Shown: positions 7,151-26,091 of the stretch, piece after piece
Position numbering within the stretch: position 1 is the stretch's first letter
Layout: each line of letters starts with the position of its first letter
Assembly (NCBI GenBank): GCA_937900515.1
Contig: CALCCU010000166.1
Location: forward strand, 1-64,000
Length of the DNA stretch: 64,000 bases
From: an uncultured Gammaproteobacteria bacterium
GTDB lineage: Bacteria > Pseudomonadota > Gammaproteobacteria > Nitrosococcales > Methylophagaceae
Direction of reading: 5' to 3'
Notes under the pieces: model-generated
What the model was told of the DNA's origin: nothing
Seen by the model: only the letters and a program-made list of their open reading frames with translations
Databases searched by the model: none
Made by a program: the position numbers and the translations under genes

Positions 7151-7191
7151 AAAAAAAAAGCCGTAATGAAATTAATCATTACGGCTTTTTT
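7151..7191. terminator. Bidirectional rho-independent terminator
   Basis: A-tract + GCCGTAATGA-AATTAA-TCATTACGGC + T-tract. Confidence 0.88.
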
Positions 7192-7213: not shown

Positions 7214-7777
7214 TTAAGCGATTCTATTTTTAGCTCTACGACGCAAGCCCATAAAGCCTAACAATGCTGGGGCAAACATAAAAGCTGCTGCTGGTACAGG
7301 AACAGCAGAAAGACCAGAATCATAGGCTCTGTAATTACTCAAGCCAGATCCTTTGCCACTTACACTTATATCAAATTCCTTGTTTGCAGCAACTAGGCTA
7401 GCAAAGTGGAAGAAGACTTCATACTGCCCCATGTGAATAGCTAAATAGTCATAAGCAGTATTGCTTTTTATTGTAGCTGAAGAACCACCGCCTAGACTGT
7501 CAATTTGAGAACTCAAGTTTAAAGTTGATAGTCCGAATGTAGATTTAACAACGTCTCCCACATTGGTTGGGTTTTGTGGGTTAAAAGAGTCACCGACAGC
7601 AATTTTATCAACGGTAGTCCCTAGTTTAGATTCATCATATGTGAATGTTAACGTTTTATTTTTTGAATTGGTAAACGTAAAAGGGTTAGAAAGAGATATT
7701 TCTACCATCGCCGCATTTACGATAGAGCTACTCATAGCTAGCACTAGGAATAGTGAACTAATCGCTAATTTTTTCAT
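7214..7777 (-). CDS. PEP-CTERM-like (VPXXXP-type) secreted surface protein
   Basis: Signal peptide MKKLAISSLFLVLAMSSSIVNA; C-terminal VPVPAAAFMFAPALLGFMGLRRRAKNRIA (short motif, TM, Arg cluster); RBS AAGGA before MKKLAIS. Confidence 0.8.
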   Translation of the reverse strand: MKKLAISSLFLVLAMSSSIVNAAMVEISLSNPFTFTNSKNKTLTFTYDESKLGTTVDKIAVGDSFNPQNPTNVGDVVKSTFGLSTLNLSSQIDSLGGGSSATIKSNTAYDYLAIHMGQYEVFFHFASLVAANKEFDISVSGKGSGLSNYRAYDSGLSAVPVPAAAFMFAPALLGFMGLRRRAKNRIA

Positions 7778-7801
7778 GACATTTTTCCTTGATTCTGAAA
7801 A

Positions 7802-7877
7802 ATGCAACTCAGCCATCTTAAAATTATTAAGACCCTAGAGCTTTCCGTTGCCTGGCTCACACCAAGTTTGGCTTTAA
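7802..7877 (-). ncRNA. Candidate cyclic-di-GMP-I (GEMM) type riboswitch in the leader of the PEP-CTERM-like gene
   Basis: Minus-strand RNA AAAGCCAAACUUGGUGUGAGCCAGGCAACGGAAAGCUCUAGGGUCUUAAUAAUUUUAAGAUGGCUGAGUUGC: stem CUUGGU-GUGA-GCCAGG capped by a GNRA loop, ACGnAAAGC core, GGGUCUUAA..UUAAGAUGGCUGAGUUGC second arm; ends ~25 nt before the start codon. Confidence 0.55.
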
Positions 7878-8038
7878 GTTTTAAGTTTAAAACTAGACAC
7901 GCAGGCCGAGTTTTCTTCTATAGAATAGTGTGAATACCAAAATAATGATAGCTTCATCACACATTTCGTGTAAATAATATGTTTTATCATTGCGAAATGC
8001 AATAGTTATTTCATATTTAATTTGTCACTATAAGCTTT

Positions 8039-24975: not shown

Positions 24976-26091
24976 CTAGTCGTCAGAATACTTACTTCTA
25001 ATTAAATTTACATCATCTAATCTGTTTAAAAAAGCTTCAACGCATAATGGGTCTAAGTGTGTGCCTGACTGTTCTTTTATATAAGCAACGGCATCTTCAT
25101 GAGACCATGCCCGTTTATAAGGCCTGACTGACACAAGCGCATCATAGACATCGGCAACCGCTACAACTCTAGCAATAAATGGAATTTGCTCACCTTTTAA
25201 ACCATTTGGGTAACCACTACCATCCACTCTTTCATGATGGTTAAGTGCTATTTCAGCACCTATTTTCATATATTTTGAACTACTTGAAGATAGAATTTCA
25301 TGACCTATCTTCGAATGGGTTGTAATAACTTCCCATTCATCTGCATCCAATTTACCATTCTTGAGCAACACAGAATCAGGAATACCGATTTTTCCAATAT
25401 CATGCATTGGTGCCGCATATTCCAAATCAATACACTCTTCCGGAGTCAATTTTCCTGTTTCTTCGGCAATAATTCGTGAATACTTAGCCATACGAATCAC
25501 ATGGTTCCCCGTCCCTTCATCACGGTATTCACCTGCTTTTGCAAGACATAGAAGCGCTTCTCTTTCCCGTTGAACTATTTGTTGCGTTGCTAATTCGACC
25601 TGTCTTGCTAACCAGTCAGCACGATCCTGAATGATGAGATGTTGTTCATGTAGTTTTAATAAATTTCTACACGTTGTTCTACACTCAATCTGATCCATTG
25701 GTCTGTTTAAAAATGCTGAGGCACCTGCTTCTAAAGCTTCATAACGAACCGCCTTCTCACTGTTAACGCTTACCATAATAATTGGCACATTTTCGTATTC
25801 AGGTTTAGAGCGAATTTCTGTTATCACTTCAATGCCATTCATATCAGGCATAAGGTAATCTGTGACAATTAAATCTGCGGAATGACTATCAAGCCAACTT
25901 AACGCTAAGGCTGGTTCAGAAAAAGCAATAACAGAGATATTTTCAGCAATTTGAATAATGATTTTTTCTAGAATAGATCTACCTGTGGATTGATCATCAA
26001 TAATCACAACATAGCGCTTATCTTTAATCACTCTCCTTCTCCTTGCCCGTTCATACGTATCCAAATTATCATTACTACTCACTAAAAACAT
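24976..26091 (-). CDS. rpfG: RpfG-like response regulator with HD-GYP c-di-GMP phosphodiesterase domain
   Basis: VVIIDDQSTGRSILEKI, DLIVTDYLMPDMNG; HDIGKIGIPDSVL, NHHERVDGSGYPNGLKGEQIP. Confidence 0.92.
   Translation of the reverse strand: MFLVSSNDNLDTYERARRRRVIKDKRYVVIIDDQSTGRSILEKIIIQIAENISVIAFSEPALALSWLDSHSADLIVTDYLMPDMNGIEVITEIRSKPEYENVPIIMVSVNSEKAVRYEALEAGASAFLNRPMDQIECRTTCRNLLKLHEQHLIIQDRADWLARQVELATQQIVQREREALLCLAKAGEYRDEGTGNHVIRMAKYSRIIAEETGKLTPEECIDLEYAAPMHDIGKIGIPDSVLLKNGKLDADEWEVITTHSKIGHEILSSSSSKYMKIGAEIALNHHERVDGSGYPNGLKGEQIPFIARVVAVADVYDALVSVRPYKRAWSHEDAVAYIKEQSGTHLDPLCVEAFLNRLDDVNLIRSKYSDD

Follow-up and report, generated by a model that had tools for sequence, protein, structure and literature searches.

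The locus and its features

The window, i.e. the whole stretch of 64,000 nucleotides analysed here, contains on its minus strand a short gene with a c-di-GMP-I (GEMM) aptamer in its leader (Table 1). A search of the whole window against 4227 Rfam families (cmscan) matched RF01051 at 7882–7800 of the minus strand with 38.6 bits (gathering score 35; E-value 5e-4, computed for 64 kb and the full set of families). Apart from this match, a tRNA was the sole hit in the window. Both arms of the aptamer, the GUGA loop of the GNRA type, the ACGGAAAGC core and the Shine-Dalgarno sequence AAGGA are located on the minus strand where the original prediction had placed them. AAGGA indeed lies between the aptamer and the start codon, but the gap is 22 nt (7800 to the ATG at 7777) and not about 25 nt. 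As had been proposed, the layout of this leader suits translational control.

An ATG further upstream (7816) would open a frame of 200 aa. It was rejected as the start: it lies inside P3, and the orthologues start at MKK or MNK. From the promoter-like site, transcription would begin about 55 nt 5' of the aptamer; five such sites were found, with 3.1 expected in shuffles.

Table 1. Features of the riboswitch locus, in window coordinates.
Feature	Position	Strand	Basis and remarks
Promoter-like site TTTACA, 18 nt, TATCAT	7945–7974	minus	Weak; consensus match only, 10/12
c-di-GMP-I aptamer (P1b pairs 21:46 and 22:45, P2 with GUGA loop, P3)	7800–7882	minus	RF01051 match, genus alignment and genus model
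C92, ligand-pairing base and first base of the Shine-Dalgarno hairpin	7804	minus	RF01051 alignment; role from PMC3764141
8-bp hairpin CAUUUUUC / GAAAAAUG, covering part of the Shine-Dalgarno sequence and the spacer	7780–7804 (arms 7804–7797 and 7787–7780)	minus	Folding prediction, swapped-locus tests, orthologues
Shine-Dalgarno sequence AAGGA	7786–7790	minus	Read from the sequence
Gene for a 187-aa protein (signal peptide, predicted beta-rich domain, C-terminal VPVPAAAFMFAPALLGFMGLRRR sorting tail)	7214–7777	minus	Sequence and profile searches, structure prediction
Intrinsic-terminator-like hairpin 3' of the gene, A-rich and T-rich sides	7154–7191		T-run on the minus strand too

Structure of the aptamer

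Judged by its sequence, this leader is a true riboswitch of the known c-di-GMP-I class, of which it is a further member, and is predicted to bind c-di-GMP; the Infernal comparison with RF01051 that the original prediction had called for bears out this assignment. The minimum-energy folding of the aptamer is unremarkable (z = -1.0). Thus, the covariance-model score and the homologues carry the case for the aptamer.

The window RNA shares with the class the fold, the site in the 5' leader, the bases G20, A47 and C92, and the GNRA loop with its receptor pairs (C59-U60/A78-G79). The loop in P2 and the receptor pairs C-G and U-A in P3, with which it would dock, can be read in the sequence. It differs from the class in having C21-G46 for G21-C46, in the loss of G42, in an extra G in P3 and in the absence of a detectable P1. 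G42 is replaced and accompanied by one extra base (C-A before A43). This position is highly conserved; it is not a ligand contact and is not required by the Rfam cut-off. The RF01051 score of the window copy is among the lowest in the genus, and its affinity may be reduced as a result of the loss of G42, the extra base and the extra G. All 20 pairs of a model built for the genus are standard in the window copy, which reaches 74 bits with this model (the copy was itself part of the training set).

The lack of a strong outer P1 had been taken as a departure from the consensus. This is incorrect, since the RF01051 consensus leaves the P1 positions unpaired; a weak P1 is therefore no defect. In a swapped-locus test of 65 genus leaders, native P1 arms gave no pairing signal over swapped ones (p = 0.94), so that a P1 stem found no support there.

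The paired positions covary across the homologous leaders. When the class-I structure is imposed on 69 aptamers of the genus, 97% of the cells pair and 15 of the 20 pairs vary on both sides. None of 500 shuffles reached the observed covariation, and pairing falls to 43–49% if the partner is shifted by one column. For 63 other aptamers of the family, in an alignment fitted to the model, the corresponding values are 99%, 13 of 20 pairs and 0 of 500 shuffles. The internal loop of the genus aptamers covaries as well: A25 occurs with G42 in 28 of 34 cases and a base other than A25 with a base other than G42 in 33 of 35. Most genus members without A25 have lost G42, as has the window copy.

Ligand-contacting positions and the swapped 21:46 pair

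The published ligand contacts of c-di-GMP-I aptamers are G20, A47 and C92 (PMC3764141, also the source of the numbering and of the role given to C92). According to the RF01051 alignment, all three are canonical in the window aptamer. Positions 21 and 46 are absent from the list of highly conserved bases, which does include G42 (PMC3764141); a simulation study found both positions to be energetically important (PMC9049102). In the Rfam consensus core 'ACGC', C46 pairs with G21. The window has C21-G46 instead, with pairing retained, and this pair and C22-G45 lie below the binding pocket. The difference between the ACGGAAAGC core and the consensus ACGCAAAGC is thus one half of a compensated swap.

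The swapped pair is the norm in the family. It is present in 67 of 69 genus aptamers (G-C in the other two) and in all 63 distinct aptamers from sister genera. A class-wide sample of other Gammaproteobacteria yielded G21-C46 in 36 of 48 aptamers, none of them before a gene with a VPxPA tail, and C21-G46 in 12 of 48, one of them before such a gene. Neither of the two genus aptamers with the canonical G21-C46 (L008 and L016) stands before a tail gene; both precede a secreted zinc-metalloprotease-like protein. Their loop is GUAA rather than GUGA, and their receptor pairs are of the CC:GG type rather than CU:AG. Outside the family, a high-GC gammaproteobacterium (L244, genome G194) also has a C21-G46 aptamer close to a VPLPA tail, possibly as an independent case or by transfer.

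The downstream protein and the exosortase

The C-terminus of the encoded protein has a VPVPAA...FAPALLGFMGLRRR tail with the layout VPxPA, hydrophobic helix, RRR. The genome encodes XrtD, the VPLPA-CTERM exosortase (TIGR04152; 565 bits, cut-off 400). The earlier description of the protein as PEP-CTERM-like holds. Compared with the VPLPA-CTERM/XrtD system (TIGR03370/TIGR04152), the exosortase and the tail layout agree, whereas the tail stays below the curated cut-off of TIGR03370 (13.2 versus 25.35 bits). 'VPLPA-CTERM-like' is thus the correct wording. The tail also remains below the cut-off of TIGR02595 (PEP-CTERM; 9.7 versus 16 bits). It scores 60.8 bits with a genus tail profile that includes this very tail.

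The AlphaFold2 model of the cargo has a mean pLDDT of 67, with one of five models above 40. A Foldseek search with this model against the PDB gave nothing significant (best E-value 0.024, TM about 0.1). Consequently, no function is claimed for the cargo.

Relatives of XrtD with 65–75% identity are present in genomes and MAGs of Methylophaga and Cycloclasticus, which assigns the window to a gammaproteobacterium of Methylophagaceae type. Within the genus, the riboswitch was found in 11 of 12 genomes with XrtD and in 7 of 17 without it, several of the latter being incomplete. The near-complete genome G019 has no XrtD; its tail genes look decayed (short frames, stops) and two aptamers remain. The genome of the window has at least 59 GGDEF matches, which indicates that c-di-GMP can be made. 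The window itself encodes, at 24976–26091 of the minus strand, a candidate c-di-GMP phosphodiesterase, namely a response regulator containing an HD domain and HD-GYP-like residues.

Distribution of the riboswitch

Three RF01051 matches were found in the genome, each before a protein ending in VPVPAA..FAPALLGF..LRR. Across the genus there are at least 73 aptamers in 18 of 29 genomes, and 66 of these 73 precede genes with VPxPA tails, usually 14–50 nt before the start. In sister genera 58 of 63 aptamers stand before tails of the strict pattern; with at least two more before a variant or contig-cut tail, the number rises to at least 60 of 63. The genome counts are lower bounds, as the searches score only the best first-look candidates. 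Counted in reverse, ten sampled genomes contain 106 tail genes, of which 51 carry an aptamer. Rechecking 40 of the remaining tail genes for missed aptamers gave a single case, a decayed copy from the genome to which the window belongs. After removal of signal peptide and tail, the 123 riboswitch-linked proteins fall into 38 sequence clusters; the features they have in common are therefore the leader and the tail. The Methylophagaceae thus show a family-wide pattern in which the riboswitch precedes about half of the exosortase-type tail genes sampled, whatever the cargo domain.

Four RF01051 aptamers have no downstream gene (L006:1501-1587, L015:1501-1588, L025:1501-1588 and L072, minus strand). 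In L006 and L015 the aptamer follows a DUF808/YedI-like gene, with a terminator-like hairpin within about 10 nt and a convergent ahpF-like gene opposite. A 3'-UTR element or a free c-di-GMP-binding RNA is conceivable here. A further aptamer (L026, G002:C17) lies before an ORF of about 53 aa that resembles a small membrane protein.

The Shine-Dalgarno hairpin and proposed switching

C92 is predicted to be the first base of a hairpin that reaches into the ribosome-binding site. In the window this hairpin is A-U rich (-4.8 kcal/mol, z = -1.5) and pairs two of the five Shine-Dalgarno bases. It is predicted in all five orthologous leaders (the window gene and those of G007, G013, G015 and G026), which have kept the aptamer too. 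In all 65 leaders of the genus taken together, pairing of the C92 arm is stronger with the Shine-Dalgarno and start region of the same locus than with the regions of the other loci (p = 2e-4; p = 0.001 when only unique arms are counted). Chimeric leaders of the genus reached the native C92 pairing in 0 of 200 sets and the native Shine-Dalgarno pairing in 19 of 200, so that occlusion of the Shine-Dalgarno sequence is weakly above the chimeras. Related leaders share ancestry and the p-values are therefore indicative only. For leaders of the sister genera, 40 of 200 chimera sets attain the native value, so that the C92 hairpin does not exceed chance there. Hence, the C92-anchored hairpin was rejected as a general mechanism; it is supported in the window's genus and not in the sister genera.

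The model that we find best supported for the window gene is translational activation, proposed here to work through competition for C92. In the ligand-free state, C92 and the seven bases that follow would pair with GAAAAAUG and mask the 3' end of the Shine-Dalgarno sequence and the spacer. Once c-di-GMP is bound, C92 would pair with the ligand and the hairpin would lose its first pair and the start of its stacking. Loss of the hairpin would open the ribosome site and switch translation on at high c-di-GMP. After export, XrtD would presumably process and anchor the translated protein, which may join a surface or matrix coat.

Alternative interpretations

The original prediction suggested that the RNA may be a variant class, and a ligand specificity altered towards cGAMP or another cyclic dinucleotide could be suspected from a core that is unlike the consensus and from an RF01051 score just 3.6 bits above the gathering cut-off. 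cGAMP-sensing GEMM variants have A at position 20. The window aptamer and all 69 genus aptamers have G20. With A47 and C92 canonical as well, and with the change at position 46 compensated at position 21 and the norm in the lineage, the RNA is very unlikely to be an altered-ligand variant. Furthermore, the altered-ligand family RF03167 (c-di-GMP-I-GGC) scores 33.8 bits in the window, far under its cut-off of 59, and GGDEF proteins are plentiful in the genome. A new variant class was rejected on these grounds and an altered ligand is highly improbable. That the aptamer is degenerate and has lost its function in this gene is likewise very doubtful. The low score within the genus, the missing G42, the extra base before A43 and the extra G in P3 would fit such a loss, and the same genome holds the clearly decayed fourth copy before another tail gene (L140/L117, G000:C222:1112-1189), in which several pairs are broken and which reaches 35 bits under the genus model. 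Against it stand the intact ligand contacts and the fully standard pairing of the window copy, including its score with the genus model that was trained on it.

The riboswitch could also act as a translational off switch or as an mRNA-stability element, the ligand-bound state lowering the output of the surface protein. A weak P1 and an A-U-rich hairpin are compatible with either direction, and the chimera test gives no support for masking of the Shine-Dalgarno sequence in sister genera. Additionally, Ribo5 of Methylophaga nitratireducenticrescens GP59, which is linked to a PEP-CTERM gene, is higher in planktonic than in biofilm cells (PMC12530212). On the other hand, C92 is predicted to be locked in the hairpin in the window gene and its four orthologues, so that binding is predicted to open the ribosome site. 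Surface and matrix proteins are also usually induced by c-di-GMP, which speaks against lowered output. We therefore regard an off switch or stability element as unlikely; most likely, high c-di-GMP acts through the c-di-GMP-I riboswitch to switch on the translation of a surface protein sorted by an exosortase.

Relation to known systems and implications

The pairing of riboswitch and VPLPA/PEP-CTERM gene is already known from one Methylophaga strain. A 2025 study of GP59 lists seven c-di-GMP riboswitches in this strain, four of them (riboswitches 4–7) by VPLPA/PEP-CTERM genes, and three of these four show higher transcript levels in biofilm (PMC12530212). One of the genomes analysed, G038, probably belongs to this strain, since the coordinates nearly match. 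Family, riboswitch class and position before the tail gene are the same as in the window. The passages on the four place them in one strain, near exopolysaccharide genes, and do not mention a family-wide pattern, the 21:46 swap or a leader mechanism (PMC12530212). No further paper on exosortase substrates and c-di-GMP riboswitches as a regulon was found, in a search that reached a minority of subscription journals.

In Vibrio cholerae, the class-I aptamer Vc1 also precedes the gene of a secreted attachment protein and responds positively, as c-di-GMP raises gbpA expression by a mechanism that was left open (PMC4744006). The Vc1 leader is longer than 200 nt and has no apparent anti-Shine-Dalgarno sequence (PMC4744006), whereas the start codon in the window is 22 nt away and a C92-anchored hairpin is predicted. 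In Aquincola, floc formation involves the PEP-CTERM protein PepA (PMC9850573), in keeping with a matrix role.

The control signals of exosortase/PEP-CTERM surface proteins are poorly known, and the pattern at the level of the regulon, which is unusually coherent, is more interesting than the single element. A broader reading is possible and is put forward tentatively: in the Methylophagaceae one c-di-GMP-I aptamer lineage with the swapped 21:46 pair may serve as a transferable leader module, the regulon being set by the sorting tail and not by the cargo. In one branch C92 would also start the Shine-Dalgarno hairpin, so that ligand binding would be in direct competition with ribosome access, with no P1 stem involved. 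There is a ready collection of over 120 natural aptamer-leader pairs in which the action of c-di-GMP-I riboswitches on translation can be studied. Through one RNA class, c-di-GMP, a biofilm signal, is linked to roughly half of the XrtD-type tail genes identified in the sampled genomes, across 38 cargo clusters, and this gives a testable prediction for a set of uncharacterised surface proteins.
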